Origin: Coniferiporia sulphurascens
Taxonomy: Eukaryota > Basidiomycota > Agaricomycetes > Hymenochaetales > Hymenochaetaceae
Direction: 5' to 3'
Length of the DNA: 64,000 nucleotides
NCBI GenBank assembly: GCA_002794785.1
Contig: NBBA01000011.1
Coordinates: 434,001 to 498,000 of the forward strand
The notes under the pieces were generated by a model that searched no databases, was not told the DNA's origin, and saw only the letters and a list, made by a program, of their open reading frames with translations. A program made the translations under genes and the position numbers. Positions 5,262-46,400 of this stretch are shown piece after piece (position 1 is the stretch's first letter; each line of letters starts with the position of its first letter).

Positions 5262-8200
5262 TGGCTGCCACCTAACCAGTACGGGGGGCGTCAAGGACAT
5301 TCAGTCTACGATGCCGCCCAACACCTCCTACAGATAGTGGAGAATGCCCACGCGAAGGGCCTTGTGTGCTCAGTCTTAGCAGTCGACATTCAGGGCTTCT
5401 TTGACTTGGTACACCCCTGCCTCCTCCACCGGCAATTGCTGGAGCTCCAGTGCCCGCCCGACATGGCGGATTGGTGTCTCTCCTTCATGATGGACCGGCA
5501 GGTCGCAGTCGCATTTGATGGCACCACCCTCCCAACCGCCCCCAAACCCGACTTCGGCACCCCTCAAGGATCGCCTGTCTCCCCCATCCTATCAACAATT
5601 TTTGCAGGTGTGGTCCTCCAGCGCTTCCACCAAGCCGGCACCACTGTGCTTGCTTACATTGATGACCACTTACTAATATGCATAGGCCCCTCAGTGGCAT
5701 CCAACTGCTGCCGACTAGCCGACGCATATCACCAACTCGACGGACTCTTCAGTGATATCGGACTCAACATTGAAGCTGCCAAAACAGAGGCACTCCACTT
5801 TCACCCACCCTGGCGCAGAATCGGCTATCACGGCTGGGACATGGCAGGAATTCAAATCGACCCCAACACCCTCATCCGACCCTCCCACCCACTAAGGTGG
5901 CTCAGGATCTGGTGGGACCCAGGCTTGACCTTCAAGCCCCATGTAGAGAGAATGCGCTCTAAGGGGCTCTCCACCCTCGCCGCCCTCCGCATCCTGGGTA
6001 ATACCGAACGCGGAGTATCGGCCCTCCTCCTCTGGCGACTATACACTAGCTGTGTCCACTCCGTCTTAGCGTGGGGCGCCCCAGTCTGGTACCATGGCCA
6101 CTGCCAAAAAACCCTAATAAACCGCCTACAGTCTGTGCAAAACACGGCCTGCCAGTGGATTCTTGGCGTCTACAAGGGCACCTCCCCATTCTCCACTAAC
6201 TTTCTATGCTCAGTCCCTCCCCTTTCTTTTTTACTTCAAATACTTAAAAACGTCCCACTCCCTGCATCTATGGCGCACCCCCCACTCTATTGGCCGCAAA
6301 CACTTCCAAAATGTAACTAATAGACCTTTTTCCCTTTCTCTGCAGGTCCGAGTCCCTCGGGTACAACCAGTCCCCGCATATATGCACCCCCCATGGACAG
6401 ATCCTCTGGCCTTTGCAGGTGGATGGGTCACCTTCACCCTCCCCTCCCTACCGGTCACAGGTGACATGCGCAAAGAGTTTGTGCAGGCCGCGCTAGACCT
6501 CAGCACCACCCACCACCTCCAGGTCTTCACAGATGGCTCCCGCATCGGGACAGCCTCAGGATCCGCCATCCACGCTATGCTCGGCCGAACCAAATTGCGG
6601 GCTCGCCGACTCGCCTCCCCCACCTGTGCCACAGCCACGGACACAGAAATCTTCTCCCTCGCCACCGCCCCTGGCTGGGCAGCGCACCGCCTCCGCACCC
6701 ATCTGCCTGTCGCATTGGACATGTTCTTTCTGTCCGATTCAGTGACAGCACTCAACCTTTTCCACAGCTGGGCCGCCATCCCTGGGGCCCACCTCCTCCA
6801 CCTTTGGAAGGCGGGGGTCGAGATGCTTCTGGACTCGCATCCAGGCCTCACCATCCATTTCATATGGTGCCTGGGCCACTCGGACATCCCCGGAAATGAA
6901 TGGGCCAATGTCGAAGCGAAGTTCACCACGGAGCTCCCCCCCTCGCAGCTTGTGCCCTCCATATCTGCCCTTAAGGAAGTGGCCACCAAGACTCTGGTCG
7001 AACGGTGGACGTTATCCCTGGCCCGCCCTCTAGCCTCCACCACTGATAAATACTTGGCCATACATGGCATCCCCTCACGTCACCCACGGAAACTGCTCAC
7101 CCACTCCATAGACCACCCTCGCCATCACCTCTCTGCAGTGGCACAAGTCCTCTGCCATGCCAGTCCCTACGGGGGCTACTGGCTGAGCTTCGACTCAGCC
7201 TACCGGTGCAGGCATGGCTTGATCTCCCACTGCAGGTGGCATAGCCACCCACCATGGCCAGCACAGACAACCGCCCACATACTAGGTGGGTGCACCATGT
7301 TCCGCCCCTGGATCCGGCACATCTTTTTTATTATTATTATTATTATTCCTGCAGTATTACATAATTACAAGCTGCCCCCCCGAAGGGGGGGCCCTAACTA
7401 CATAACAACAGAGGTGCCCATCATCGCACATCGCATGAAACTGGGCGGGGACCCTGCTCCCTGAAGGGTGCCAAGGTGTGGAGGGCCCCTATTAGTTGAG
7501 GGAAAGCACAGGAGAAAGGAATACATATCGCTATGACGAAACCAAGCAGTTGAGGGCAGGTAACGGGGGTAACTTAGAATCGGAAAGGGAGGGCGAGAGT
7601 GCTGGCCGAGACATATGAGGGAGAGTCCGAACCAACATTAAGGGCGCCCTTGCGGGCCCACATTTGCCTACACCTTCCTCATAACATCGCCCCCTTAAAA
7701 GGGTACCCACCCCGTATGTCAGAGGGCGGGAGTTTTTAAACGGCGCGATATGCTGTCCTCCTCAATGCAAAGGGAGTGCCAGCGGCATCCCTGTGAGCAT
7801 ATATGGAGTGTGGCTAGCTGTTGGGAATCAACTCAAGCCCGCAGTAGGACTTACTCCTACACGAACCCATGGCAGATTTAGTGCTCTGGAGCCAGTAGAG
7901 GGAACTACCCCCCACTGCTACAGCCCACTCCATAGTGGGGGCAGGGTTCCACGCCCACCCTCAGAGTTTCCTGTTCCCCAGCATGCACTTCAGAGACCGA
8001 GTTGCCCCAGTGAATACTCAGGGCCTAGGCCCCACTTCTGGATCTGCGGCATACCGGAGTTACCATGTTGCCAGAGGCTTGGACCCCAGCCTATCTCTTT
8101 CAAGGCTGCCAGGGAGTCTGCTTGACTAACCACCTGCTGAGTGAGAGCGAATCATCTACCCCAGGGGCCCATGGTGACCTGTCTCTTTCGAGTCGGTTGG

Positions 8201-9147
8201 TTTTTGCCCTTCAAGCCCATGTGTTAAGAAGCCCCTATCCCCTTATAGCAACTAGTGCCATCATCAGAGACCCTTTCGGGATTTGGGGCAGCCGTTTTTA
8301 TGATTTGTCATGCCAAGGACAATGCGGCCCCATGCCCAAAGGCACAACCTGAAGGTTAGATCCGAATTTCCCCGAACCCAAGGTCTCCCGACCGAAGCTG
8401 ACCGCTGATGGGCAGAGGGTTACCCCCCCCTGCGTGGGTGTGGGGACATTAACATCGTGTCCCCCCCCAACTGGCAGGCATACGCCCCTTGCGCCGCCAA
8501 GAGGCAGACCAGCCGAGCACCATGCCCCAAGAGAGCACAGCAGACATGAGAGAGGATCTTGTACTCACTGAGCCATCCCCCCCCATTGCAACATTATCAA
8601 CAGGTTGCGTGCCCCCTGGTGGGTGTGAGCCCCTTTTGCACCATCAGATGACGCTGCTACAGCGCCTCGGCAACCAGTGAGCAGCACTCCTTTACAAAAG
8701 GTGTGCAGTCAGTAGCCTTCTCTCATGTCGACCCAGTAGAATACTAGACCAGAGCATGGGTTGCTGTGACGAACCCCCAGATGACCCCCAGTGAAAACCA
8801 GAGATGGTGGTGGTAAGAGGACAAGAAGGATTGTCCAGTGCATCTGGCCAGCCAAGATCCCCCTCCCAGCCCACCACTCAGAATGGGCTGAGGAAAACCG
8901 TATCCCGGTTCTGCGCCATTGGCTTAGGCTGACAGGGCACCTGAACTGCCTCTCAGACAGAACCGCAGGCGCCATCCACCTGGCTTTCGCCACGATGGAG
9001 CTAGACGGCCACCCCACCGATGAGGACATGGACCTGGACCTCCTTAGGGACTACATGTGTCATATGCTCGGACCCTGTACCCAGGACTCGGACCCGGCTC
9101 TCTTGGAGCTGTCAGGTATGCTCCCACCCTTTCTCCCCGACCTGTGA
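5262..9147 (+). pseudogene. LINE-beta ORF2 (RT/RNase H part), interrupted
   Basis: RT block A (VLAVDIQGFFDLV, ~5380), block B (GTPQGSPVSPILS, ~5560) and block C (YIDDHLL, ~5660) are intact. The thumb-side motif WLRIWWDPGLTF follows. A frameshift lies in the T-run near 6228. RNase H follows in the new frame, with VFTDGSRI (~6522), TEIFSL, LSDSVTAL and WCLGHSDIPGNEWAN (~6865). The C-terminal Cys/His motif (ISHCRW...AHILGGC) sits at ~7225-7290. NAL interrupts the frame after RPWIRHI, and it resumes with WPAKIPLPAHHSEW. The stop is at 9147. EN and the first RT motifs are absent. Confidence 0.9.
7325..8833 (-). mobile_element. NAL element (non-coding, LINE-ended), copy 1
   Basis: A 1509-bp non-coding insertion in the RNase H C-terminal region of LINE-beta. 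On the minus strand it begins with the 5' signature shared with the LINEs (CCTTCTTG, then ACCACCACCATC). A core of about 1.2 kb with no conserved ORF follows, ending in CGCCCTTAATGTTGG. The alpha/beta-type LINE 3' UTR then runs from TTCGGACTCTC to an (ATT)n tail at 7325. The target duplication is 12 bp, TCCGGCACATCT (7313-7324) versus TCCAGTGCATCT (8834-8845). Its three differences are all CpG/TpG/CpA. It lacks EN and RT, so mobilisation by LINE enzymes is inferred. Confidence 0.88.
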
Positions 9148-9472
9148 CCGCCTTTCGGACTCCTAATTGTATGTCCCGGCCGGTGCTCTCACCCTCCCAT
9201 TCCCCATTCTAAGCTACCCCCTTTGCCTGCACTTGTCCATTTGGTATCGTCGTAGCAATATGTATTCCTCCCTCTCTTTGTCTGTTGTACTAATAGGAGC
9301 CCTTCACACCTTGGCACCCTTCGGGGAGCAGGGCCCCCGCCCAGTTTTGTGCGCTGGGCAATGACGGGTGCCTCTGTTGTTATGTAATTAGGGCCCCCCC
9401 TTCGGGGGGGCAGCTTGTAATTAGGTAATACTGCAGGAATAATTTAAAAAAAATAAAAAATAAAAAAAAAGG

Positions 9473-10727
9473 TCACCAGGTTGCCCTTCACGTTGAACTT
9501 GGAGGACAGCACAGTGACTGCATCAGCAGTAGGCAAGGCCTGGAAGAATCCCCAGGCCATTTCAGTGAGGGAGGCGCCTGACTTATGCATAGCTGCAGGT
9601 GCGATGAGGTCCCGCAGTGTTAGGACCAAGGTGGGTTCCTTGGCGTACATCTTGGGAGGGGATGGAGGTTGCCGGACTTTCTTTGCCTTCTTTGCTGGGG
9701 CCATCTGGGCTGCTGGGGGCTGGGGGAGGTTAGCTGCAAGTGCCGCTAACTGGGTGTACGTCATCGGGGCTCCTGCTGGTGTGACTTTCACTGCAGCCTC
9801 AAGCTGAGCCAGGGTAATTGTTGTGGCAACAGTTGCCACAGTGGTGGTAGTGGGGGTGGTTCCTCCCACATTGGTGGGAGTCTGCTGTGGGGCCTGTTGC
9901 GGCTGTGGGGCAGGGTGTGATGCCAGGGAGGAGACCTGGCAGGTGAGGTTCCCCACATCGACTGAGAGCCGCTTGATGATGTCTGCCAACACTGAAATCT
10001 GTGAGTCAGGGGGAGCAGGTTGGGCTTGAGCCTGCTGGTTAGTCTTTGTGTTGAAGGTAAATGGGGCTCTCATAGCGGAGGAGAACAGTGCACTGAGTGA
10101 GATTCTCGTGCCCATCGTGGATTGGGCATATTCCTGTTCTGCTGCACAGGTGGCGATGTGGTCCGGATCATCCCGATCTTGCATCCGGTACATTGTCGAC
10201 AGTGTTTCATGGCTGAGGGCTGTTAATTTCCCCAGGAATGCTGCCATCGCTTGTATGACCATTGTGGAGCTGGCAGCCTTTTCGATGTCGGCCTTGAGGG
10301 TGTTGAGGGCCCTTTCTACATTTGGTGCGAAGTCCGTCAGTGCTCAAACGAACTCTGAGGTGACTGGCCGGTTGCGAGGGGTCTCGGGGGAAAGGACGTC
10401 GGCCCTGCATTTGCCAGTCGACTGGGGGGGTGTATGTGGATCTTGCATCTGGTCGTCGGTGTCCTGGCCGGTGTGTGACCGGACCAGGGCGATGTTGAGG
10501 GCGGTTTGTGTTCCCCTCTGCGGCCACTCGTTGAGGTCGCTGAGGGGGGTGACTCCCGTTAGGTTGTCGTAGTTGGGGGCAGTCAGTCGTGCTGGTGGGG
10601 ACAGCGATCGGCTGCGGGGGGCGGTTGGTGACTGTTGGCGGCCAGGGTTGGCCGCTCCAGATGCAGTAGAGCTAGCAGTGGAGAGGCCAGTGGGTCGTAG
10701 TGGACGACCACCAAACCGATCTGCCAT
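9473..10727 (-). pseudogene. LINE-delta ORF1, N-terminal 418 codons
   Basis: The reading frame starts with MADRFGGRPLRPTGL. A low-complexity Pro/Ser/Thr/Gln N-terminal half follows, typical of LINE gag proteins. Then come a Lys-rich stretch (PAKKAKKVRQ), a conserved MYAKEPTLVLTL and LTEMAWGFFQALPTAD. The frame stays open from the ATG to the truncation except for one TGA at 10344-10346 (SEFV-stop-ALTDFAP). The homologous codon in the 14457-16484 copy is AGA. The zinc-knuckle part is lost to the insertion. Confidence 0.88.
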
Positions 10728-10786
10728 GGGGGAGTTTGAGCTGCCCGTGCTAGGGAGATGGTAGTGGTAAGAGGTCAAGAAGGGGA
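9473..10786 (-). mobile_element. LINE-delta, 5' part
   Basis: This is the 5' end of a minus-strand LINE of the delta subfamily. The 5' signature lies at ~10750-10786 (plus strand TAGTGGTAAGAGGTCAAGAAGG). The 5' UTR is short, and ORF1 follows down to 9473, where the tail of LINE-beta cuts it. The right flank (10787 on) is a plus-strand LINE RT fragment, so delta inserted into an older LINE. Confidence 0.85.
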
Positions 10787-11121
10787 TGAATTGGTCTCAA
10801 CATTGAACCAGCGAAGATGGAGGCCCTCCACTTCCACCTGCCCAGGCGATGAACCGGCTACCACCGCTGGGACACTGCCGGGATACAAATCGATGCCAAC
10901 ACCCTGGTACGACCCACCAACCCCCTGCACTGGCTGGGAATCTGGTGGGATGCAGGCCTCACCTTCAAACCTCACATAGAGCAAATGCGCTCCAAAGGCC
11001 TCTCAACACTGGCAGCCCTCCACATCCTTGGCAACACTGAGAGGGGCCTCTGCCATCCACCTCTGGCGACTCTACACCGCCTGCGTGCGCACCATCTTAG
11101 CATGGGGCGCACCAGTGTGGT
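10787..11121 (+). pseudogene. LINE ORF2 fragment (end of RT)
   Basis: A plus-strand RT C-terminal fragment reading GLNIE, ALHFHLP, then DANTLVRPTNPLHWLGIWW, HIEQMRSKGLSTLAALHI and LAWGAPVW. It is bounded on the left by the 5' end of delta(-) and on the right by the 5' end of a NAL element. A stop after LPRR and a frame slip near 11050 show decay. I cannot assign its subfamily firmly. Confidence 0.8.
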
Positions 11122-12632
11122 CATCTCTTCTTGTCCTCTTACCACCACCATCTCACTTTTGCCCTGGGGTGTTCTTGGCAGTATGTCGCAGCAACCCGAC
11201 CTTGCGCTGGGGTCTCACCTTGGCCATCGTACGAGAGAGGGGATCCGACTTACCTCGGTGCGCCGGGGTCGTTTGTCAGTCACCGTAACGCGGCAGGAAA
11301 CGGGCACAGAGCTCGCTGGCTGGCTTGGCAACCCATCGAAAACGTTGCCTCTGGATTGAGGACTTGGTGAGGATGATTCTTTCTGGTGTCTGCACTGCCC
11401 TCTTGGGGTGGTGTGCTCATTGAGCTCGCATTGTATGTGGGCTCGGCGGGGGGAGACACAATGTTAACGTCCTCACAGGGGGGGGGGAAACCCCCTGCCT
11501 CGCAGCGAGCGACTCCAGTCGGGAAACCTCAGTTTGGGGCAACCCGGATCACGCCTTCGGGTGCTGAGCACTGCCCTCCTGGGTACCTCGGAGCCCGTGT
11601 TGTCCCTGGCATGACAAATCAAAAACTGCCCCCCTAAATTCCCGAAAGGGTCTCTGATGACGGCACCTAGTGCTAAAAGGAGATAAGGGGCTCATAACAC
11701 ATGGTGTGGCAGTAAGAACCACCCGATGCCGAAAGGCGACAGGGCACCATGGGCCTCTTGGGTGGGATGGACCCTCTTGAGGTGGTTAGTATCCCTTACT
11801 CCCTGGGACAGCTTTGCCACTGGGGTCGGGTATGCGAGACGGAGATCCTGGTACAATTGCAGATCCAGAAGCGGGGCCGGGGGTTGACTGGGCGCTTGTC
11901 CCATGACCTTGGTGCCTGAGTATTCCGGCTGTAATGGCTGTTTCTGAAGTGTGTGCCAGGGCACAGGAAAGGGCCTGCATGGAGTGTGCATTGGCATCCT
12001 GGCATGCTGAAGTGTAGTGTCTTGGGCCATAGCACTGTGGGAGAGTTCCCCCCAGTGGCTCCAGAGGACTAAATCCTCCGTTGGTTCATGTGGGGGTAAT
12101 TCCCACTATGGGCTTAAGTTGATTCCCAGAAGTGCAGCGGCACTCTCCAGGACCTCTATGGTTGGGGAAGGAATGTGTAGGGTAGGGGGGTCATTCCATA
12201 TGGGTGTAGTAGTGCCTATGGCGCCATGACCTGCACCTGGGGTGGCCTCCTGGCACGGCATGCCTTACCCTAGTGCATCACACATCCATATTTCGGAGAG
12301 GACAGCGGGAGCAGTGTATGCCGGCTGCATATCCTGAGGAAGGTGCATGCACTGTTTGAGTCCCGCAAGGGCACTCTTAATTCTGGCTTTTGGCTTGGTT
12401 TGGCTTTTCGTAGTCTCAATATGTATGCCTCCCTCTTTCCCCCCCATCTATCCCTAATAGGGCACGTAAGTTCACCAGGCCTCCTTCAGGAGGCACGCAC
12501 CCCACCCAGTTTCACTCGATGAGCAATGACAGGTGCCTCAGTAGTTAGGTAGTTTACAGGCGGCCCCTTCGGGGCCGCAGGTGTATTGCATAGCTCAGTA
12601 GGAATAATAAATATTTAAAAAAATATTTAAAA
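11122..12632 (+). mobile_element. NAL element with delta-type 3' end, copy 2
   Basis: A plus-strand NAL copy of about 1511 bp. It begins CATCTCTTCTTGTCC, then ACCACCACCATC. The non-coding core is collinear with the minus-strand copies at 7325 and 24680. It ends in CACTCTTAATTCTGG at ~12364-12380, where it joins the delta 3' UTR (CTTTTGGCTTGG...). It carries the delta hairpin (GGCCCC-TTCG-GGGCC, ~12562-12580) and an AATAATAAA-rich tail. The join to LINE sequence differs from the two alpha-tailed copies, but the core's 3' end is the same. I found no clear target duplication. Confidence 0.85.
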
Positions 12633-12840
12633 GTAAGTGACCACCCTAGGTCGGGTGGCAGGAGGGAGAACTGGTATGTAGCCGGGGATTGTCAGTATGT
12701 TGAATACTGGGTCCCCATCTGGGTTAGTGAGGGAGGGCTGTAGCCCGATTTGATACCACGGCGGCTCCTGGATCAGAATCAGGTGAGGGGGGGAGGGTTC
12801 ATCAGTAAGGACCGGGAGAAGGGAGTGAATTGCTGCAAGT

Positions 12841-14402
12841 TTTTTTAATTTTTTTAATTTTTAATTTATTATTCCTGCAGTATTACGTAATTACAAGCTG
12901 CCCCCCCAAAGGGGGGGCCCTAACTACCTAACAACAGAGGTGCCCATCAACGCACAACACATGAAACTGGGTGGAGACCCTGCTCCCCGAAGGGTGCCAA
13001 GGTGGGAAGGGCCCCTATTAAAACAAGAAGAGGAGAAGGAGAGAGGAATACATATCGCTACAACAGAACCAAGCGGATGAGGGCAGGTAATGGGGGTAAC
13101 TTAGAATTGGAAAGGGAGGGCAAGAGCACCGGCCAGGACATATGAGGGAGAGTCCGAAAGGCATTCACTGAGTAGAGGAAAAGGGAGGAAGCGCACCTGA
13201 AAGCTCCAAGAGAGCTGGGTCCGAGTCCTGGGGTTGGGGTCCAAGCATACGACTCATGTATCCCTTGAGGAGGTCCAAGTCCATATCTTTGTCAGTTGGG
13301 TGTCCCTCCAACTCCATCATGGCGAAAGCCAGGCAGATGGTGGCTGAGGTACGGTCTGAGATGCAGTTAAGGTGCCCTGTCAGCTTAAGCCAGCAGCACA
13401 AAACCTGGAGGCGGTTTTCATCGGCCCACTCAGTGTGGTGGGTCAGAAGTGGGTCTCGGGGAGGCCAGACCTTACGGATCCATGGTCAGAAAGTACGACA
13501 CCCGCCCAGAACATGGGCTGTGGATTGGGCTGGCCAGGGGGGGTGGTTGTGCCACTGGCAGTGTGAGATCAGGCCATGTCTGTGCCAGTAGGCTGAGTCG
13601 AAGCTCAGCCAGTAGCCCCTGTAGGGACCGGTGCAGCAGAGGACCTGGGCGACTGCCGAGAGCTCATGGTGGGGATGGTCGACCGACTGGGCAAGAAGTT
13701 TCCATGGTCGGCAAGAGGGGATGCCGTTGACAGCCAAGTACTTGTCGGCTGTCGAGGCCAGGGGGCAGGCGAGAGAAAGGGACCACCGTTCCATTAGGGT
13801 TTTGACAGCGGCCTCCTTCAGGGTGGAGGTAGAGGGGGCAAGGGAGGACAAGGGGAGATTTGTTGCGAACTTGGCCTCTTGGTCAGCCCATTCATTCCCT
13901 GGGATGTTGGAGTGACCTGGGCACCAGATGAAATGGATGGAGAGTTCTGGATATGAGTCCAAGAGAGTCCGGACCCCAGCCTTCCATTGATGAAGGAGGT
14001 GGGCGCCTGGGGCTGGCGCCCATGTGCAGATAAGGTGGAGTGCCATCAGCGAATCCAACAGAAAGAAGATGTCGGATGCGACAGGCAGTAGCTCCCAGAG
14101 GTGGTGTGCCGCCCACGTGGGCACAGAGGTGAGGGAGAAAATTTCTGCATCCGTTGCAGTGGCACATGTAGGGGAGGCGAGTCGGCGAGATTTTAGGCAG
14201 GTGAGGCCTGTCATGGCGCAGACAGCGGAACCAGACTTTGTCCCCATGTGGGAGCCATCAGTGAAGACCTGGAGGTGGGGGAGGGTGCTCAGGGAGCATG
14301 CGGCTTCCACAAATTCCTCACGGGTGTCTTTGCTGACCAGAGTGATAGGAGAGGCAAACGATACTCAACCATTCATAAATGCCAGAGGATCTGTCCACAG
14401 GG
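12841..14402 (-). mobile_element. LINE-alpha, 5'-truncated fragment
   Basis: A 1562-bp minus-strand insertion holding the alpha 3' UTR (C-rich hairpin with UUUG loop near 12899) and the RNase H to C-terminal part of ORF2. The target duplication is 14 bp, GAATTGCTGCAAGT (12827-12840) versus GAATCGCCGCAAGT (14403-14416). Both differences are TG versus CG. The T-rich stretch at 12841-12872 is its tail. Confidence 0.92.
13165..14402 (-). pseudogene. LINE-alpha ORF2 C-terminal part (RNase H)
   Basis: RNase H motifs are present in order: VFTDGSHMGTKSG (~14250), TDAEIFSL, LLDSLMAL and WCPGHSNIPGNEWAD (~13890). The Cys/His tail motif and the conserved C-terminus (LDLLKGYMSRMLG) follow, with a stop at 13165. 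The frame is single apart from one TGA at ~13484, where other copies have CGA in RPWIRKVW. The piece lacks EN and RT because of 5' truncation. Confidence 0.9.
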
Positions 14403-14456
14403 GAATCGCCGCAAGTGAGCAGGCAGCGTTCCACTGGAGTACACAGATTTGTGCAC

Positions 14457-16484: not shown

Positions 16485-16544
16485 GGGGGAGTTTGAGCTG
16501 CCTGCACTAGGGAGATGGTGGTGGTAAGAAGTCAAGAAGGGATG

Positions 16545-18989: not shown

Positions 18990-19300
18990 GATTATCAGTC
19001 AGAAATAGTCAAATATAGTCAGAAATAGCCAGAAAATAGTAGTAGATAGTCATAAATAGTGAGAAAATAGTTGAAAGTAGACACAATATAGTGAAAAATA
19101 GTGAAAAATAGTTGGAAAATAGTACAAAATAGTAGAGAAAGGGGGCTATATAGCAATATATAGTGCTATATAGTAAGGGGGACTACTATATAGTACTATA
19201 TAGTACTATATATGACCAAGAAGGGCTGGATTAACCTATTTTACCTATGGGCCATATTTTAATTATATAGTGTTATATAGTACTATATAGCATTTTGGGT
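18990..19300. repeat. ATAGT repeat tract with about 10-bp phasing, then TATA palindromes
   Basis: From about 18998 to 19135 the motif (G/A)AAAATAGT recurs every 10-11 bp about 13 times (AGAAATAGTC, AAATATAGTC, AGAAATAGCC, AGAAAATAGT and so on). From about 19145 to 19295 it changes to palindromic units such as CTATATAGTACTATATAG. The spacing equals one DNA helical turn, so the A-runs are in phase. The tract lies between host DNA and a LINE fragment. Confidence 0.85.
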
Positions 19301-19308
19301 TTTTTCTG

Positions 19309-19817
19309 ATGTCGGACCATGTGGGGTGGCAACAGTTGAAGTTGCCTGCCACAAGGAGGGTGGTGGCTAGTGCCGAGGGAAGCGAGAAGAGGAATAACTC
19401 ACCTGGGTACTGTGGGGGGGCCCCAGCTCGGTCTGGGGGTAACATGCTGTAGTAGTTACACACCTGGACTGTGAGGGAGGATCGGATTTCCACAGTGAGG
19501 ATGTCAGTGCCATAAGAGGCAGTTCTGAGGACTGACCATGAGGTTGGGGGGAGGGAGCGTGCCACATAGGTGACTACCCAGGGGTGGGAATTGAGGGGTA
19601 GGACCGGTGTGTAGCCCGGGATATTGGGGACATTGAACACTGGTGTACCAGTGAGGTCGGTGAGGGATGGTTGCAGGCCGATTTGATACCAGGGTGGTTC
19701 CTGAATAAGAATTAGGTGCGGTGGGGAAGGAGCATCAGTAAGGAGCGGAATCAGGGAATTAATCGCTGCAAGTGAGTGGGCAGTGTTCCACTGCATGATG
19801 GAGATGTCTCCAATCAT
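19309..19817 (-). pseudogene. LINE-epsilon ORF2 N-terminus (EN)
   Basis: The reading frame runs from MIGDISIMQWNTAHSLAAI at 19817 to AGNFNCCHPTWSDI, covering the first ~170 EN residues. The QEPPW Glu is present. The usual GDFN motif reads GNFN, so the catalytic Asp is lost (GAC to AAC after C, a CpG-type change). The rest of ORF2 is missing. Confidence 0.85.
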
Positions 19818-20270
19818 GACTCCTCCATCTGTTCGAAGGTGGGCTCGTCCCCAATGGCCTCCAGGATTTGGCGGTATCGCTTCTTCTTGGGGCAGGACGG
19901 GAGGGTGGTGGGGTGGTCACCTTTGCAGTTGGTGCAGTGGCGAGGGTGGGGGCATGGGTCGGCTTCAGCCATGGCGTCAGTGGCGCAGTGGGCGCAGTTC
20001 TTGCAGTGGTTGTGGGTGAGGTGATTACCCCCACAGTCCGCACAGCAGGCTTGAGCACGGCACCCCTTGGTCCCATTTCCGAGGCCTTGGCAGCGCTCAC
20101 ATTGGGTGAGGCTGGGGTGAACAGGAGGGACGGAGAGGTGGAGGGAGGATCCGAAGAGCCAGACCCATGGGCGCTTGACGAGGCGCTCATGGATAGACCT
20201 GTCGGGATCAACGAAGGAGAAGGCAACTGGGCACTTACTCAGGGAGGGTAGGTGTTCAGGGGTTGCAGCC
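19814..20270 (-). pseudogene. LINE-epsilon ORF1 C-terminal part (zinc knuckles)
   Basis: About 150 codons with three intact Cys/His knuckles: CERCQGLGNGTKGC (Asn at the His position), CADCGGNHLTHNHCKNC and CTNCKGDHPTTLPSC. The TGA overlaps the ORF2 ATG (ATGA at 19814-19817). Upstream it continues into non-coding NAL sequence after one extra G, so the join lies inside the FAA codons. Confidence 0.85.
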
Positions 20271-21868
20271 AAAATTAAGAGCGCCTTTTCAGGGCTCAAC
20301 ATATGTGTGCACCTTCCTCGGGATATGGGGCGACCAAACCCCTCCCGCTGTCCTTCACGCCACACAGGCCTAAAGGTAGGATTAGAGCTACCTGATGCAC
20401 CAAGGGTGCAGTGTGAGGGTCGTGGCGCCATAGGCACTACCCCACCACCCCCAGCCACCTGGACTCATGCCTCCCCATACCCACTTGGTGATGTGAAGTG
20501 CCGCTTCATTTAAGGGAATCAACCCACCCTTTTCCTCTGATTTGTGACTGCCATTAGGACTCCTACTCGTATGTCCCGGCCGGTGCTCTCACCCTCCCTT
20601 TCTCCATTCTAAGCTACTTCCCTTGCCTGTATTTGTCTGGTTGGTATCATTGTAGTGATATGTATTCCTCCCTCTTCTTTTGCCTTGTACTAATAGGGGC
20701 CCTCCACACTTCGGCACCCCTTGGGGAGCAGGGGCCCCACCCAGTTTTGTGCATTGCGCAATGACAGGTGCCTCTGTTGTTATGTAGTTAGGGCCCCCCC
20801 TTCGGGGGGGCAGCTTGTAATTATGTAATACTGCAGGAATAATAAAATAAAATAAAATAAAATAAAAAAGTTTAAGGGAATCAACTTAAGCCTGCAGTGG
20901 GAATTACCCCCATGCGAACCGATGGAGGATTTAGTCCTCTGGAGCCACTGCAGGCAACTCTCCCACAGCACTACGGCCCGAGACACATCACTTCAGTGCA
21001 CTGATGATCCAATGCACACTCCATGATGGCCCTTTCCTGTGCCCTGGCACACACTTCAGAAACAGCCATTACAGCCGGAATACTCAGGTACCAAGGTCAT
21101 GGGACAAGTGCCCAGTCAACCCCCAGCCCCCGCTTCTGGATCCGTGATTGTACCAGGATCTCCATCTCGCATACCCAACCCCAGTGGCAAAGCTGTCCCA
21201 GGGAGTAGGGGATACTAACCACCTCAAGGGGGTCCAACCCACCCAAGAGGCCCATGGTGCCCTGTTGCCTTTCGGTGTCAGGTGGTTCTTACCACCACGC
21301 CATGTGTTATGAGCCCCCTATCTCCTTTTAGCACGAAATGCCGTCATCAGAGACCCTTTCAGGAATTTGGGGGGGCAGTTTTTGATTTGTCATGCCAGGG
21401 ACAATGCGGGCCCCAAGGTACCCAGAGGGGCATTGCTCAGCACCCGAAGGCGCGATCCGAGTTGCCCTGAACTGAGATCACCCGACCGAAGTCGCCCACT
21501 GTGAGGCAGGGGTTTCCCCCCCCCCCTGTGAGGATGTCAACATCGTGTCCCCCCCCGCTGAGCCCACATACAATGCAGGCCCAACGAGCACGCCACCCCG
21601 AGAGGACAGTGCAGGCGCCAGAAGGATGCAAGCTCACTGAGAATCCAACCAGTAGCAACGTTTTCGACGGGTGCCCGCAAGCTCTGCACCCATTCCCCGC
21701 TGCGTTATGGTGACCGATGACCAACCCTGGCGCACCAGGGTGAGTCAGAACCTTCTCTCGTATGATGCCCAGTCCCGGAGAGTCCAGACAAGGTCAGGTA
21801 GCTGCAACTTCCCCCCAGCCAACCCCAGTCACAAAACCAAGATGGTGGTGGTAAGAGGACAAGAAGGA
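20271..21868 (-). mobile_element. NAL core, copy 3, split by a LINE 3' end
   Basis: The NAL core lies in minus orientation, with its 5' signature at ~21840-21868 (plus strand GATGGTGGTGGTAAGAGGAC, then AAGAAGGATG). The core's 3' end CTCTTAATTTTGG (at 20271-20280) abuts LINE-epsilon ORF1 rather than a 3' UTR. It is interrupted at 20524-20870. It contains the conserved G-tract hairpin region (GGACACGATGTTGACATCC, ~21523-21553). Right flank: gamma RNase H sequence. Confidence 0.82.
20524..20870 (+). mobile_element. LINE (alpha/beta type), 347-bp 3' end insertion
   Basis: A severely 5'-truncated copy: the last ORF2 codons, the 3' UTR, the hairpin (CCCCCCTTCGGGGGG near 20790-20810, UUCG loop) and a tail of AATAA-type pentamers. 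It has a perfect 15-bp target duplication, TTTAAGGGAATCAAC (20509-20523 and 20871-20885), within the NAL core. Confidence 0.96.
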
Positions 21869-22259
21869 TGAGGGGTGTCTGAATGTCTGGGACACCATAC
21901 AAAATGAACAGTGAGCTGGGGGTACGAATCCAGCAGGGTCTCCACACCCACTTTCCAGATGTGTAGGAGGTGTGCGCCAGGTGCTGCTGCCCAGGTGTGG
22001 AAGAGGTGGAGAGCAGTCAGCAAATCGGACAGAAAGAAAATGACAGATGCAACATGCAGTTGGGCTGGGAGACAGCGTGCTACCCAGCTGGGGGCCATGG
22101 CGAGAGAGAACTCTTCGGCATCCGTGGCTGTGGCGCAGGTGGGGGACTCTAGTCGGCATGACTGGAGTCGGGCGTGGCCTAGCATTGCACAGATGGCCAA
22201 GCCCACCTTATTGTTGATGCGGGAGCTGTCAGTGAATACTTGGACATGATGGGTGTAGC
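21869..22259 (-). pseudogene. LINE-gamma RNase H fragment (left half)
   Basis: Minus-strand RNase H sequence with VQVFTDSSRINNKVG (FTDGS changed to FTDSS), SPTCATATDAEEFSL, FLSDLLTALHLFHTW and HFVWCPRHSDT. It continues at 30154-30480 once the full-length alpha insertion is removed. It is cut on the left by the 5' end of NAL copy 3. Confidence 0.88.
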
Positions 22260-22310
22260 ATCCTTCTTGACCAGTAACCACCACCATCGACTAGTGCGGG
22301 TAGCTAAAAC
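22260..22310 (+). promoter_or_regulatory. LINE 5' signature, putative internal promoter
   Basis: The first ~50 bp of the element (ATCCTTCTTGACC, GTAACCACCACCATC, GACTAGTGCGGG) are shared with the 5' ends of gamma, delta and the NAL elements, although the following sequences differ. The ORF1 ATG follows within 60 bp, so any promoter must lie at or inside this start. Promoter function is inferred from position and conservation. Confidence 0.5.
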
Positions 22311-22316
22311 TCCCCC

Positions 22317-24331
22317 ATGTTGAACCCCAGTGGATACAGGAATGCTCTACAATCGACTCAACCACCCCTCCCACCTCCCTCATCGGCCAGAGCCGCTGCC
22401 AACTGGGTGGCCGCTGGCAACGTTGCTGCCGCTATGCACGGTACAACCCCCACCCCCGCCCAAATCGACCCAGGCCTCCTGGTGTCGTCCCCAGATGAGC
22501 TCCATCTTGCCCCATCCCCTGTCATCGGAGTCTCGAACACAGAGTTCACCTGTGCATTCAAACACATCAGCCACCCCCCCTCTGTAGGCTCCAACCCCCC
22601 CGCCAGCTCCAACAAGCAGGGCGAGATGGAAGATATCCTCGAGAACCTGCACACTCCCTCACCGCTGCTCACCAATAAGCGTTCATCCGAAAACCTCTCC
22701 CCGCACACCCCCTGACCCCACCCTCGAGCCCAGTTTGAGCCGCATGTGTCGGGATTTATGTACTCCATCTCCCATGCACTGGAGGACTTCGACAGGAGGA
22801 CCCACTGCTACAGCCCCAAAGAGATTGACCGAGCTGCCGCTAAGTTTGTGGGTGACCTCCTTTGGAACATTCAACAGACCATTGCTGGCATTATTAGGGA
22901 CGAGAAGGACCCCCAACACATAATCTCCCACAACCTGGAGATGGCCTACAACATTGCAAGGGGGGGGGGCGGAAGCCTCTCTGCCAGTGCCCTTCGCCCC
23001 AGCTCACCCCCAACAAAGGACCCCGATCACCACCGCCCAACCCTCTGCCCCGACCAGGACCCCCGGAACCGCCAATGTGTCACCCGATGTGGCTGCACTG
23101 ACTAACATTGTCAAACAGTTATCTACAGAGGTTGCCACCATCTCCCTACAAGTCTCCACACTCGTCAACTGGCCCACACCCCGTGCCCCACAGGCCCAGA
23201 AGGCCCAGGCCCCTGCCACCAACACCACCGCCCCTGCCACCATCACCGTGGCCCCAACTTCGTATGCCCAGGTAGCAGCCGCCCCGGCCCCACCTATGGC
23301 CTCCAACCCCAACCCTGTCGCACTGGCTCCGGGCACCATCTACACAATGGTGACCCACAAGAAGAAGAAAAAGCAACGACAGGTCCCCCCCCGCCCCCGG
23401 TATACGCAAAGGACCCAACCCTGGTCCTCATTCCCGCTGTTGTCCCTAAGACTGAGCTACAACTCCCGGCTATGCGCCTCACCACCACTGCTTGTGAGTT
23501 CTTCACTTCCCTTCCCACTGCTGACCAGGTCATGGTCCTTGCCTCCTCATTCAATGTGAAAGGGAACCTCGTGACCTCTTTCACCAAGCGACCCTCTTCT
23601 GCCTCGCCCACCACCGACATGATCATTGACTGTCATGTGGCGGTGTTTGCAGCCCATATGCGCAATAGGTGCCTATCCGCGATGGCCGATCAGATCTCCG
23701 CCCGGTTCACCCTCACCCCCATCCATGTCCATCCCCAGTCCGCTCTCTGCATCTCTATGGTGCCCTGCATGGACTACCTCTTTGGCCAGAATGGCCACAC
23801 CATCTCCCCGAAGGCCCTCATGGCCGAAATCCAGAACAACCCAGCGCTCCACCCCCTCGACTTCATCATCGACCCCACTTTACCGCCACAGAGGATCACC
23901 TCCCGACCCTCCAGAAATGCCCCATGGCCTTCTCCTTCTCCGACCCTGATGGCTCAATCCATGCGCAACTCCTTAAGCGCCCACAGGTTTGGCTGTTTGG
24001 TTCCGCCCTCTCCCTCTCCATCCCGCCCTATCGCCCCAGCCTCACTCAATGTGAGCGCTGTCAGGGCTTAGGCCATGGAACGAAAGGCTGCTGTGCCCAG
24101 CCCTGCTGTGCAGATTGCAGAGGGGGACATCTGTCCCATAACCACTGTAAGTCCTGTGCATCCTGTGCTACTGGAGCTGTCGAGGGCGACCAGTGCCCTC
24201 ACCCCTGCTATTGCACCAACTGCAAAGGCGACCACCCTGCCACCCTCCCTCAATGCCCCAAGAAACGGCGATTCCGCCAGATCCTAGAGGCCACTGAAGG
24301 ACCTGAAGATGAACCAATGGAGGACCAATGA
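22317..24331 (+). pseudogene. LINE-alpha ORF1 (gag-like), frameshifted
   Basis: It starts MLNPSGYRNALQS; other copies begin MSNP, so TCG became TTG. A disordered N-terminus and a conserved block with MVPCMDYLFGQNGHTISPK follow. Three C-terminal knuckles are intact: CERCQGLGHGTKGC, CADCRGGHLSHNHCKSC and CTNCKGDHPATLPQC. Frameshifts lie in the G10 run at 22960-22969, in a C-run near 23387 and near 23880. The last codons are GAC CAA TGA, overlapping the ORF2 ATG. Intact length would be about 675 aa. Confidence 0.9.
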
Positions 24332-27300
24332 ATAGAGACATCTCCATTCTTCAGTGGAATGCTGCATGCTCTCTAGCCATGGTCCATTCCCTTATTCCGA
24401 TCCTCACCACTGACCCATCCCCACCCACCTTTATCCTGATCCAGGAACCGCCCTGGTATCAAATAGGCCTCCAGCCATCACTCACTGACCCAGCCGGCAC
24501 GCTGGTACTCAATGTGCCACCCCTCCCAGGTTACACAGCCATTCTTCCCCCAGCCACCCGGCCACGGGTTGTTACGTATGTATCCTGGGCCATCCCATCA
24601 ACCGCCTGGTCAGTCCTAGGCGCCACATCCTCCGGCACCGATGTCCTCACCATCGAAATCTGAGCACACCTGACAATCCTTTTTTTTTATTTATATTTTA
24701 TTATTCCTGCAGTATTACATAATTACAAGCTGCCCCCCCAAAGGGGGGGCCCTAACTACATAACAACAGAGGCGCCCATCATCGCACAATACACAAAACT
24801 GGGCGGGGGCCCTGCTCCCCAGAGGGAGCCAGAGTGGGAAGGGCCCCTATTAGTATAAAAACAGAAAGAGGGAGGAATACGTGTCACTACAGCCACACCA
24901 AACGGACAACATCAGGCAAATGGGGGTAGCTTAGAATTGGAAAGGGGGGGCGAGAGTGCCGGCTGGGACATACGAGGGAGAGTCTGAACCAACATTAAGG
25001 GCGCCCTTGCAGGGCCCACATTTGCCTACACCTTCCTCGTAACATTGCCCCCTTAAAAAGGGTACCTGCCCTGCATGTCAGAGGGTGGGAGTTTTTAAAT
25101 GGCACAATATGCTGTCCTCCTCAATGCAAAGGGAGTGCCAGCGGCATCCCTGTGAGCATATATGGAGTGTGGCTAGCTGTTGGGAATCAACTCAGGCCCG
25201 CAATAGGACTTACTCCTATGCGAACCCATGGCAGATTTAGTGCTCTGGAGCCAGTAGAGGGAACTACCCCCCACTGCTACAGCCCACTCCATAGTGGGGG
25301 CAGGGTTCCACACCCACCCCCAGAGTTTCCTGTTCCCTGGCATGCGCTTCAGAGACCGGGTTGCCCCGGTGAATACTCAGGGCCTAGGCCCTGCTTCTGG
25401 ATCCACGGCATACCAGAGTTACCATGTTGCCAGAGGCTTAGACCCCAGCCTATCTCTTTCGAGGCTGCCAGGGAGTCTGCTTGACTAACCACCCGCTGAG
25501 TGAGAGCGAATCATCTACCCCAGGGGCCCATGGTGACCTGTCTCTTTCGAGTCGGTTGGTTTTTGCCCTTCAAGCCCATGTGTTAAGAAGCCCCTATCCC
25601 CTTACAGCAACTAGTGCCGTCATCAGAGACCCTTTCAGGATTTGGGGCAGCCGTTTTTATGATTTGTCATGCCAAGGACAATGCGGCCCCATGCCCAAAG
25701 GCACAACCTGAAGGTTAGATCCGAATTTCCCCAAACCTGAGGTCTCCTGACCGAAGCTGACCGCTGATGGGCAGAGGGTTACCCCCCCCCCCGCGTGGGT
25801 GTGGGGACGTTAACATTGTGTCCCCCCCCGACTGGCAGGCATGCGCCCCTTGTGCCACTGAGAGGCGGACCAGCCGAGCACCATGCCCCAAGAGAGCACA
25901 GCAGATGTGAGAGAGGATCTTGTACTCACCGAGCCATCCCCCCCCATTGCAATGTTATCGACGGGTTGTGTGCCCCCTGGCGGGTGTGAGCCCCTTTTGC
26001 GCCATCAGATGACGCCGCTACAGCGCCTTGGCGACCAGTGAGCAGCACTCCTTTACAAAAGGTGCGCAGTCAGTAGCCTTCTCTCATGTCAACCCAGTAG
26101 AATACCGGACCAGAGCATGGGTTGCTGTGACGAACCCCCAGATGACCCCCAGTGAAAACCAGAGATGGTGGTGGTAAGAGGACAAGAAGGATGACACCTG
26201 ATGATCCGCCTCTGCAACTACTATGGTATGCATGTGCCAGACCACACCACTGCCACCCCCATCTATCCCGGTGAGTCTTTCCTCTTTTCCATCCCACCGG
26301 CTTTGGCCTCCACTCTCCTTGTGGCAGGTGACTTCAACCATTGCCACCACTTGTGGTCCAAACTCCTTGCTGCATGGCAGGAGGATTTGAGGGTGCAACC
26401 CCTCGATGACTTCTTCTGGGAGCATGGCCTTGTGCCAGCTCACCTTCTGGACTCTGACTCCAGGCCCATCGACAACTGTCAGCGGTGCCCAATCGACATG
26501 ATCTGGTCCCCCCCTGCAATAAACCCAGATTCAATCCTTGACTCAGGTACCTCAACCACCTCCGCCCTGTCCGACCACGCCATCCTACGCTGGTCCCTGC
26601 TGTCCCAGCCCCCACCTCCCATTGTAAAAACCCGCCGGCTCACACCGGCCGACAAAGAGGAATGGACCGACATTGCCTTCCCTTTACTCAAAGCCGCTTT
26701 CCTCCAACAAGTGGACAACACCCTCACCCTCGATAACAAAGTGCAAGCAGTAGTCGACTCAACGATTGCCGCCCTCGCCCCCTTCACCAGAATCAGCAAG
26801 CTGTCCAAGACCGAGGTCCCCTGGTGGACCCCAACATGCAAATCGCTCCTACAGGTGATCTCAGCGGCTCCCACCCCCCTTCAGTGGTCAGCAGCCCATC
26901 GCGCATTCAAGTGGGGCATCCAGGCGGCAAAGCGGCATTTCTACACCGAGCAGGCAGACCAAGCAGATGCCTCCAACATCTGGGGCTGGGCCAAATGAGG
27001 CCTCGGCAACCGCCCCACCCCAATCCCCTCGTTAAAAAAAAGTGATGGCTCCTTCACCCAATTGGACAACGAGAAAGGTGAGCCTTTCTGCACGACTCTC
27101 TTCACACCCCCGCCACCCCAACAAGCGGCCGACACACCGCCCCCCCCTCCCCAACCAGCTGCCTCACCCATCCTCCTCATGGAGCTCGCAGGGGCACTGT
27201 CCGACACCTCCAACTTGTCGGCTCTGGGCCTCTCCAGGATCGGATATCGCCCTCTCAAATGGGTGGTAGACACTTATCCCGATGAGATCCTTGCCCTTTT

Positions 27301-29849
27301 CAATGACTGTCTGCACATGGGGCACCACCCCAAGTGCTGGCGGTCGGCAAAAGTGGTAATGCTCTGGAAGCCTAACAAGAAGGACCCCTTCTCGCCATGC
27401 TCATACTGGCCCATTACCTTAGAGGAGACCTTAGGGAAACTCCTTGAAAAGATTATAGCTAACCGGCTCCAGTTCCTCACTAACATGAGGAGTTGGCTGC
27501 CACCCAATCAATATGGGGGGTGTCAAGGACATTCTGTCTATGATGCTGCCCAGCACCTTCTACAGATCATGGAGAGAGCCCATGCCGAGGGCCACATATG
27601 TTCGGTCCTCGCAGTCAACATATAAGGGTTCTTCAACTCGGTACACCTGCAACTCCTCCACAGGCAATTGTTGGACCTCCAGTGCCCACCCGACATGGCG
27701 GACTGGTGTTTGTCCTTCATGATGGATCAGCAGGTAGCTATCGCTTTTGATGGCACCACCCTCCCAACTGCCCAGAAACCCGACCTCGGCACCCCCCAAG
27801 GGTCGCCAGTATCCCTGATCCTCTCGACCATATTCGTGGGCGTGGTCCTCTGGAAATTTCACCAAACCGGCACAACTGCCCTCACGTATGTTGACAACCA
27901 CCTCCTAGTGTGTGTCAGACCCAGTGTGGCATCCAACTGCCAGCAATTGTCTAATGCCTACCACCAACTCAATGCCCACTTTGGGGCCATCGGTCTCAAC
28001 ATCGAAGCTGCCAAAATGGAGTGCCTTCACTTCCACCCACCCTGACACCATTCAGCCGCCTATACCGACTGGGACACCGCCAGGGTGTGGGTCACCCCCG
28101 CCACGCTTATCCGACCCTCTATCCCCCTCCGTTGGCTGGGAATATGGTGGGACCCTGCCCTCACCTTCAAAGTCCATGTAGAGCGCATGTGCTCCAAGGG
28201 CCTCTCCACGCTTGCCACCCTCCACATCCTCAGCAACACCGAACGTGGTATTTCAGCCCTCCTCCTCCAGCGACTATACACCGCCTGTGTCTGCTCCATT
28301 CTGACATGGGGCACCCCAGTATGGTATCATGGCTGACACCAAAAAACATTAGTAAGCCATCTGCAGGCAGTACAAAACACTGCATGCAGATGGATTCTGG
28401 GCGTCTATAAAGGCGCCTCCCCCTTCTCTACAAATTTTCTTTGTTCCCTTCCCCCCCTTTCTTATTATTTCGAATATGCTAAGACCCTCCATTCTCTGTG
28501 CCTCTGGCGTACCCTGCACTCCATTGGTAGAAAACGCTATTACAAAACCATAACTAACCGTCCTTTTTCCACTTCTCTGCAGGTCTGGATCCCTCGGGTA
28601 CAGCCAGTTCCTGCATACACTCATCCCCCATGGACGGATCCTCTGGCATTCACGAATGGATGAGTCTTGTTTGCCACTCCTATCACTCCGGTCAGCAAAG
28701 ACACCCGCAAGGAATTTGTGGGTGCCGTGAGCACCCTAAGCACCCTCCCCCACCTCCAGGTTTTCACTGATGGCTCGCACATTGGCTCAAAATCTGGATC
28801 AGCCATCTGCACCATGAAGGGCCTTACCTGCCTCAAATCTCGCCGGCTGGCCTCCCCCACTTGCACAATGGCAACAGATGCAGAAATCTTCTCCCTCACC
28901 TCTGCACCAAGCTGGGCTGCACACCACCTCCAGGAGCAACTGCCTGTTGCATCTGACATCTTCTTTCTGTCGGATTCGCTGACGGCACTCCACCTGATCC
29001 GAACATGGGTGCCAGTCCCTGGTGCACACCTCCTCCACCAATGGAAGGCAGGGGTCCAGACTCTGTTGGACTCATACCCGGATCTATCCGTTCACTTCGT
29101 ATGGTGCCTGGGTCACTCCGACATCCCTGGGAATGAATGGGCAGACCACAAGGCGAAGTTCGCTATGAACCTACCCCCGTCTCCACTTGCACCCTCCACC
29201 TCCGCACTGAAAGAGGCTGCAGTCAACACTCTAATGGAGCGCTGGTCACTCTCACTCACCCACCCGCTTGCCTCAACGGCCGACAAATACTTAGCCGTAA
29301 ATGGGGTTCCCTCCCGCTGTCCCTGAAAGCTGCTCACGCAGTCGGTGGACCACCCCCGACACGAACTATTGGCAGTTGCCCAGGTTCTCTGCCACGCTGG
29401 TCCCTATGGGGGCTACTGGCTGAGCTTTGACTCAACCTACTGGCATAGGCATGGCCTGATCTCGCACTGCAGGTGGCACAACCACCCTCCCTGGCCGGCC
29501 CAGTCGACCGCCCATGTCTTAGGTGGATGTCTCACATTCCGACCCTGGATCCGAAAGGTCTGGCCCCCCCATGACCCTCTCCCGACCCACCACACCGAGT
29601 GGGCTGACGAAAACCGTCTCCAGGTTCTGTGCCACTGGCTTAAGCTGACGGGGCACCTTAACCGCCCTTCCGACTGCACCTCCGCTGCCATCTGCCTGGC
29701 CTTCGCTGTGATGGAGTTGGACGGCCACCCAACTGATGAAGATATGGACTTGGACCTCCTCCGGGACTACATGAGTCATATACTTGGACCCAGACCCAGC
29801 TCTTTTGGAGCTTTCAGGTATGCTTCCCCCCTTTTCCTCTGTTCTATGA
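24328..29849 (+). pseudogene. LINE-alpha ORF2 (EN-RT-RNase H), interrupted and decayed
   Basis: EN starts MNRDISILQWNAACSLAMV and is split by NAL at 24680-26193. It resumes with IRLCNYYGMH, GDFNHCHHLW and LSDHAILRW. RT motifs follow (KVVMLWKPNKKDP, NQYGGCQGHSVYDAAQ, GTPQGSPVSLILS), but block C reads YVDNHLL. The second Asp is lost by GACGAC to GACAAC at 27896-27898, a CpG change. In-frame stops include 24661, 27623, 28043 and 28334. RNase H is well preserved (VFTDGSHIGSKSG, FLSDSLTAL, GHSDIPGNEWAD). A small deletion near 29793 shifts the C-terminus. Confidence 0.92.
24680..26193 (-). mobile_element. NAL element, copy 4
   Basis: 1514 bp, non-coding, near-identical to copy 1 over its whole length, including the join between core (CGCCCTTAATGTTGG) and LINE 3' UTR (TTCAGACTCTC). 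Copies 1 and 4 therefore descend from one chimeric founder. It has the 3' UTR hairpin with UUUG loop and a T-rich tail. The target duplication is 14 bp, ACACCTGACAATCC (24666-24679) versus ACACCTGATGATCC (26194-26207). The CA/TG difference implies an ancestral CG. Confidence 0.93.
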
Positions 29850-30153
29850 CTGCCTTTTGGACTCTCCTGCATATGTCCCGGCCAGCGCTCTTGCCCTCCC
29901 TTTCCAATTCTAAGCTACCCCCTTTTGCCTGATGTCGTCCATTTGGCTTGGCTGTAGTGACATGTATTCCTCCCTCTTTCCATCTACTTACTAATAGGGG
30001 CCCTTCCCACTCTGGCTCCCTCTGGGGAGCAGGGCCCCTGCCCAGTTTTGTGTGTTGTGCGATGACGGGCACCTCTGTTGTTATGTAGTTAGGGCCCCCC
30101 CTTCGGGGGGGGCAGCTTGTAATTATGTAATACTGCAGGAATAATAATAAAAA

Positions 30154-30480
30154 ACATGATGGGTGTAGCTGAGTTCACATGCCACCATCACAAAAGACTT
30201 GCAGGTGTCGGCACTGACTGGGGCGATGGGGGTGGTGAAGTGTACTTGGCCCTGAGTGAAGGCCAGAGGGTCCATCCATGGGGGATGCATGTATGCAGGG
30301 ACTTGTTGAACCCAGGGGGCTCAGACCTGCAAAGAAAGGGAAAAAGGTCTATTAGCTACATTTTTAAAAAGTTTACGGCCAATGGAGTGCAGGGTGCGCC
30401 AAAGGTGCAGAGAATGGGTAGTCTTAATATATTCAAAATAGAAAGAAAGAGGAGGAATGGAGCAAAGGAAGTTCGCCAGA
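30154..30480 (-). pseudogene. LINE-gamma RT/RNase H fragment (right half), joined to NAL
   Basis: This continues the gamma fragment of 21869-22259: HHHKRLAG-type linker, QVPAYMHPPWMDPLAF and FTNFLCS-type sequence in the 5' direction. On its 5' side (30480) it meets the NAL core end (AATTAAAGAGCGC on the plus strand) in the same sense. This is a 5'-truncated gamma LINE fused to NAL. Confidence 0.8.
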
Positions 30481-30652
30481 ATTAAAGAGCGCCCTTGCAG
30501 GGCCCCACTACATGTGCACCTTCCTCATGACATAGAAGCCTGACCAGTAGGACTTACACCCGACATGCTGTCCTCTATGACACGCTGGATTGGGAAGGGT
30601 GTGCCGTGCCAGGGAGACATTCTGAGTGAGGGTTGCGGCACTGTAGGCACTT
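30481..30652 (-). mobile_element. NAL core, 3'-most 172 bp, copy 5
   Basis: On the sense strand the segment ends GGGCGCTCTTTAATTCTGG, the same core 3' end as in the other NAL copies, and is followed by gamma RT. It is cut at 30652 by the tail of full-length gamma(-). The remainder of this core would lie beyond the nested block, to the right of the window. Confidence 0.75.
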
Positions 30653-45481: not shown

Positions 45482-45821
45482 GGGGGAGTTTTAGCTGCCC
45501 GCACTAGTCAATGGTGGTGGTTACTGGTCAAGAAGGATGTATTATTCCTGCAGTATTACATAATTACAAGCTGCCCCCCCGAAGGGGGGGCCCTAACTAC
45601 ATAACAACAGAGGCGCCCATCATTGCGCAATGCACAAAACTGGGCAGGGGCCCTGCTCCCCGAAGGGTGCTGGTGTGTGAAGGGCCCCTATTAGTACAAG
45701 ACAAAAGAGGAGGGAGGAATACATATCACTATGACTGTACCAAGTGGGCGAATGCAGGCAAAGGAGGTAGCTTAGAATGGAGAAAGGGAGGGTGAGAGCA
45801 CCGGCTGGGACATATGAGTAG

Positions 45822-46380: not shown

Positions 46381-46400
46381 AGTAGGAGTCTGAATGGCAG

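Follow-up and report, generated by a model that had tools for sequence, protein, structure and literature searches.

A non-coding module with a fixed 3' end is joined to LINEs at 64 breakpoints in the genome of Coniferiporia sulphurascens, probably by template switching

Short interspersed nuclear elements (SINEs) borrow the 3' end of a long interspersed nuclear element (LINE), one fixed LINE-like tail being used for priming. The MINE elements of the fungus Magnaporthe grisea consist of WEIRD, a non-coding sequence of 1113 nucleotides, fused to the LINE MGL at 28 sites in 33 chimeric retroelements, and WEIRD is regarded in the corresponding report as a cellular RNA and not as a transposable element (PMC2104539). 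The mechanism that generates the mammalian chimeras of U6 RNA and LINE-1 is debated, the two proposals being ligation and template switching (PMC13174262). In vitro, the reverse transcriptase of R2 jumps best with a +1, at most +2, nucleotide overhang complementary to the 3' end of the acceptor (PMC8857657). Here, we analyze NAL, a non-coding module of about 1.2–1.3 kb located next to LINEs in a stretch of 64,000 nucleotides of the basidiomycete Coniferiporia sulphurascens (contig C11, NBBA01000011.1, positions 434001–498000, hereafter the window) and in the complete assembly (39.3 Mb, 31 contigs), to which genome-wide results refer. Judged from its sequence, NAL is probably a second template of the LINE reverse transcriptase, reached by template switching (a probability of roughly three in four).

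The first-pass annotation of the window had named MINE as a parallel, and rightly so. Like WEIRD in the published account of MINE, NAL is a full-length, fixed-end non-coding 5' module of similar length that is fused in the sense orientation to 5'-truncated LINEs at many points. Direct repeats flank the whole chimera, hot spots are found in both systems (used twice in MINE), solo copies of the 5' module are absent, and CC precedes the break (in MINE, GCC before and A or U after the break). NAL differs from MINE by the host fungus, the LINEs, and the scale (90 junctions, 64 sites, several subfamilies). In addition, the terminal base of NAL matches the break base, whereas no microhomology was found in the MINE paper (PMC2104539). 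NAL also has a covarying 3' hairpin and a 5' end shared with LINEs, and the two modules are likened here by description, not by sequence. As described for U6/LINE-1 chimeras, an RNA with a fixed end is fused in sense to a 5'-truncated LINE within outer duplications (PMC13174262). However, U6 is a known small RNA encoded by genes of its own, whereas the 1.2–1.3-kb NAL has no match in the window at the Rfam gathering score (4227 families) and no solo copy among the 90. The likeness to R2 is the pairing of 1–2 nucleotides with the acceptor end, which favors the jump (PMC8857657), except that R2 was described as jumping in vitro from a duplex end and that the NAL jump would start within a long LINE RNA, or else at the end of a truncated one. 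NAL resembles SINEs in being non-coding and spread by LINE enzymes, but the LINE part of its copies starts at 64 points and there is no constant tail, which sets it apart from SINEs. Our searches of open-access PMC papers retrieved no account of chimeras of this type in basidiomycetes.

Searching the genome with the NAL 3' end pattern GCAAGGGYRCTCTTAATTCTGG, with up to three mismatches, returned 87 sites (46 + 41), and none with the reversed-pattern control. The variant end CTTTAATTCTGG added three sites, and all 90 junctions were examined. A LINE followed the NAL end in the same sense at 88 of them, including the minus-strand junction L015 with 54 nucleotides of LINE (L-numbers designate individual loci). 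L010 and L074 were not placeable, other sequence beginning after about 13–20 nucleotides. Grouping by 40 nucleotides gave 64 distinct LINE breakpoints, 50 of them single and 14 used at least twice; L085 was grouped with the other subfamily B copies though its site differs by eye. Among the breakpoints placed on two rulers, 52 of 57 fell past position 4000 of about 6400, as expected of 5'-truncated LINE copies; at L024, the NAL end is fused to LINE nucleotide 7. NAL 3' ends scattered over many positions would have spoken against a fixed end joined to variable LINE positions, as proposed in the first-pass annotation. No scatter was found, since all 40 scored matches (79 candidates) stopped at query position 117–125 of 125, and the pattern extends far beyond the window. 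The 5' end is also fixed (CATCCTTCTTG...), and in 34 complete copies it is separated from the 3' end by 1191–1275 nucleotides; it is absent within 1400 nucleotides in 23 of the 51 assessable copies. The longest ATG frame across nine copies encoded 129 amino acids, and frames were mostly antisense and not common to copies. The 90 copies were assigned to subfamilies A1 (56), D (11), A2 (7, delimited by eye), B (7), E (6), and C (3), the outlier L052 being counted under A1. More than one breakpoint was found in five subfamilies, and a single one in B.

Within the window, placement on a LINE ruler of 6461 nucleotides, built from the window itself, confirmed five NAL copies with a fixed 3' end joined in the same sense to LINEs at four breakpoints. 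The components are as follows.

7632..8833, minus strand: NAL copy 1, subfamily B, both ends complete; last NAL base 7632
7324..7631, minus strand: LINE 3' untranslated region (UTR) fused to NAL copy 1; LINE start at about 6133 on the ruler
11122..12386, plus strand: NAL copy 2, subfamily A1, complete; last NAL base 12386
11122..11153, plus strand: NAL 5' end, a near-match to the LINE 5' ends at 10782 (minus), 16544 (minus), 22259 (plus), and 34511 (plus)
12358..12386, plus strand: NAL 3' hairpin, GAGT CCC GCAA GGG C ACTC plus TTAATTCTGG
12387..12638, plus strand: 3' UTR of the delta LINE fused to NAL copy 2; LINE start at about 6208
20867..21870, minus strand: NAL copy 3, 5' segment, subfamily E, interrupted by a later insertion
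20523..20868, plus strand: LINE 3' piece inside NAL copy 3, 5'-truncated and without NAL; flanks (G/A)TTTAAGGGAATCAAC
20269..20535, minus strand: NAL copy 3, 3' segment, which has the fixed end; last NAL base 20269; insertion boundary approximate
19312..20268, minus strand: LINE region of open reading frame 1 fused to NAL copy 3; break within the FAATP codons, start at about 1680
24989..26193, minus strand: NAL copy 4, subfamily B, complete, nested in a LINE; last NAL base 24989
24680..24988, minus strand: LINE 3' UTR fused to NAL copy 4; start at about 6133; duplication GGAT(CA/TG)TCAGGTGT around the chimera
30476..30651, minus strand: NAL copy 5, subfamily C, 3' part, interrupted at 30652 by a LINE tail; last NAL base 30476
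30190..30475, minus strand: LINE reverse transcriptase region fused to NAL copy 5, at the NFLCS codons; start at about 4697

On the sense strand, these copies end in CTTAATTCTGG, CTTAATTTTGG, CTTAATGTTGG, or TTTAATTCTGG, and the LINE follows immediately.

Direct repeats enclosing the chimera as a whole, one ahead of the NAL 5' end and one behind the LINE tail, were found in 7 of the 18 copies that could be tested and in none of 306 mispaired controls. Examples are AGTCAGAGAGGCGG in L031 (14/14) and GCATCGGGATAGAGG in L034 (14/15). The position of these duplications indicates that NAL and LINE integrated together. The target repeat of the copy 1 chimera, of which the second unit lies after the LINE tail, has diverged (GATGCACTGGA / GATGTGCCGGA, three mismatches) and falls below the threshold of the scored test. 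Duplications were also found around five truncated LINEs devoid of NAL, a set from which L016 and L028 (continuous LINE) and L047 (start inside NAL) were excluded. Thus, NAL is not required for integration.

To characterize the break, the bases were taken from LINE relatives not fused to NAL, with CpG sites restored, for 66 non-redundant subfamily–breakpoint combinations. In the intact LINE, a pyrimidine occupied -3 in 62 cases and -2 in 63, G occupied -1 in 43, and C occupied +1 in 45 and +2 in 44, which gives the consensus CCG^CC (the caret marks the break). The G at -1 is identical to the terminal G of NAL and is assignable to either partner (43/66 versus about 21% expected, p = 1e-14; without CpG restoration, 27/43 for A1). 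If the break is shifted to the left of the shared bases, the preceding dinucleotide is CC in 33 of 66 cases, against a background of 16.5%. In subfamilies A2 and D, 8 of 10 cases had A as the LINE base at +1, against 2 of 55 in A1, C, and E (Fisher, 4e-7). A +1 base varying with the NAL group is predicted by short pairing between cDNA and acceptor, and not by a ligase. Together with the match at -1, it favors an enzyme jumping with 1–2 nucleotides of pairing over RNA ligation.

The first-pass annotation had proposed template switching during target-primed reverse transcription, a proposal well supported by the fixed end, the 64 breakpoints, and the outer duplications. The LINE reverse transcriptase would begin target-primed synthesis at the LINE RNA 3' end and would halt within this RNA, typically just 3' of CC (CC^GCC). 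It would then shift to a second RNA molecule, that of NAL, at its 3' end, the last one or two bases of NAL pairing with the cDNA end, and would copy NAL through to its 5' end, the joint cDNA being integrated with a single target-site duplication. This scheme supposes an NAL RNA with a fixed 3' end, joining by the enzyme and not by an RNA ligase, and NAL copies within chimeras as the presumed source of that RNA.

The same layout, including the sense orientation and the outer duplication, would be generated by an RNA ligase linking the NAL RNA 3' end to the 5' ends of cut LINE RNAs, the fused RNA then being reverse-transcribed. The motif at -3 to -1 might be a cleavage site, and both ligation and template switching are deemed possible in the account of U6/LINE-1 chimeras (PMC13174262). 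We consider ligation unlikely, since it needs neither the subfamily-dependent base at +1 nor the match of G at -1. If 5'-truncated LINEs inserted at one site, at the terminus of NAL repeats already present in the genome, a fixed left flank and variable LINE starts would likewise result. However, duplications lie outside NAL, which refutes a role of NAL as the target wherever they are seen, and the sequence after the LINE tails varies between loci, so that hardly any chance is left to this explanation. Splicing between a donor at the NAL terminus and LINE acceptors would also combine a fixed with a variable partner; it is refuted by the near absence of A at -2 (2 of 66 intact-LINE cases), that is, of an AG acceptor, and its probability is negligible.

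Improbable, but less so than the latter two, is the multiplication of a few older NAL-LINE elements through their LINE tails, the breakpoints having been varied by internal deletion or homologous switching. Such copying would account for the 14 breakpoints used repeatedly and for the agreement of both halves in the pairs L009/L011, L018/L019, L007/L062, L084/L080, and L068/L086. The first three of these pairs may be segmental copies. The 50 single breakpoints argue against it, as do near-identical NALs at different positions: the NALs of L029, L035, and L007 are 0.5–1% apart at non-CpG sites and are joined to the LINE near 5940, 4626, and 5518, respectively. These joins did not arise from one element by internal deletion, contrary to what would have undermined the first-pass proposal. 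In most pairs that share a breakpoint and have a complete NAL, divergence is much greater in the LINE half. This was the case for 9 of 10 such pairs in group D, and L084/L080 (NAL 4/1198, LINE 3/287) and L068/L086 (NAL 9/1156, LINE 3/277) were exceptions. Window copies 1 and 4 had been considered as one re-mobilized chimera, a view that did not hold because transversions affect 1 of 1138 NAL sites and 12 of 220 LINE sites (Fisher, 3e-9). The first 67 nucleotides of LINE contain no transversion in these two copies, which would suit a few older elements, and a homologous switch close to the join may have occurred. Greater divergence of the LINE halves suggests that shared breakpoints are largely reused hot spots.

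Several points weigh against template switching onto an NAL RNA. The independent NAL transcript suggested in the first-pass annotation is a prediction from the DNA sequence, and no stand-alone source of NAL was found among the 90 copies, although one could be hidden by gaps in the assembly or by divergence of the gene. No flanking duplication was detected in 11 of the 18 testable chimeras. Subfamilies A2 and D supply just 10 distinct cases for the base at +1, B supplies one breakpoint, and at L023 a C stands at a position that is A in most LINE relatives. The cytosines at -3 and -2 fall outside the chimera, and pairing with the acceptor end does not account for them. The break motif was found in only one of the five truncated LINEs devoid of NAL. 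Covariation of the 3' hairpin rests on few independent events, and the number of pairs changed on both sides (three) was reached by 72 of 500 shuffles.

The 3' end of NAL is a covarying hairpin. Despite sequence differences between the NAL groups at the 3' end, a hairpin with a loop of the GCAA type is conserved, and TTAAT and the terminal TGG come after it. In 20 hand-picked ends, the seven pairs of the stem were 99.3% paired, and none of the 500 shuffles matched the paired fraction or the covariation score. The pairing count was repeated on all copies, with 620 of 623 cells paired in 89 of 90 copies (the L010 hairpin was not parsed) and 200 of 203 over 29 distinct hairpins, the three unpaired cells being located in window copy 1 and L065. 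At the other end of the module, the first 31 nucleotides or so are nearly identical to LINE 5' ends, and this shared stretch perhaps acts as a promoter. NAL is not the regular 5' UTR of the LINE, since full-length LINEs with duplications begin without it (window 22259 and about 59820). A candidate leader module, at L038 3461–3765 and L044 (minus) 498–802, was instead a 305-bp repeat resembling a long terminal repeat (93.8% alike), which contains a TATAAAA motif, ends in TAACA, and precedes a LINE in one case and NAL nucleotide 329 in the other.

Other features of the LINEs and of NAL were recorded. The window LINEs encode endonuclease, reverse transcriptase, and RNase H, and 16 of the 19 protein matches of one LINE frame came from Coniferiporia weirii (54–72% identical), one of the other three being strong and two weak. 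At window 45539–45540, a LINE that ends nearly without poly(A) abuts the 5' end of a second LINE of the same orientation, as if the enzyme had jumped from a complete LINE RNA to another LINE RNA. In L036 (minus), around 1897 and 3303, the LINE that follows NAL begins near ruler position 5043 and the LINE located after its tail begins at nearly the same position, as if one LINE point had served two joins. The 77 flanks past LINE tails comprised 58 LINE, 7 NAL, and 12 other sequences, mostly as nested targets would give. A repeat of about 520–565 bp (about 80% alike) lies within LINEs or adjoins LINE tails at window 37468–37987, 45823–46383, and 51490–52050, with further copies at 57553–58113 and 60276–60835. 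CpG-type decay affects 220 of 1266 columns of subfamily A1 NAL (18 complete copies), a sign of methylation-type decay. The NAL 3' ends occur on 23 of 31 contigs and concentrate in a single region of each long contig, such as 94 kb out of 5.0 Mb on C1 (C1 1.39–1.49 Mb, C3 2.20–2.30 Mb, C8 1.46–1.66 Mb); these LINE-rich regions look as if they could mark centromeres.

Chimeras of this kind are already known from MINE, and the novelty lies in the host, the scale, a break base dependent on the acceptor, the 3' hairpin, and a 5' end in common with LINEs. The occurrence of several breakpoints per NAL group fits a multiplying family, and it also fits several host genes or one gene missing from the assembly. 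NAL might, tentatively, be a retroelement that multiplies only as a second template: it would have no priming tail of its own, a structured 3' end for jumps of the LINE enzyme, and a LINE 5' end, the copies in chimeras supplying the next NAL RNA. The choice between template jumping and RNA ligation is debated for LINE chimeras, and 90 natural junctions with several acceptor subfamilies test it directly. If pairing occurs at the acceptor end, the break base should vary according to the acceptor, as seen so far. Under the tentative retroelement reading, NAL junctions would be a natural record of the pairing of one or two nucleotides between a cDNA end and an acceptor RNA. Our results suggest that MINE-like chimeras are not peculiar to one ascomycete. 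If NAL is really a replicating unit, it would represent a further way of being a retroelement.

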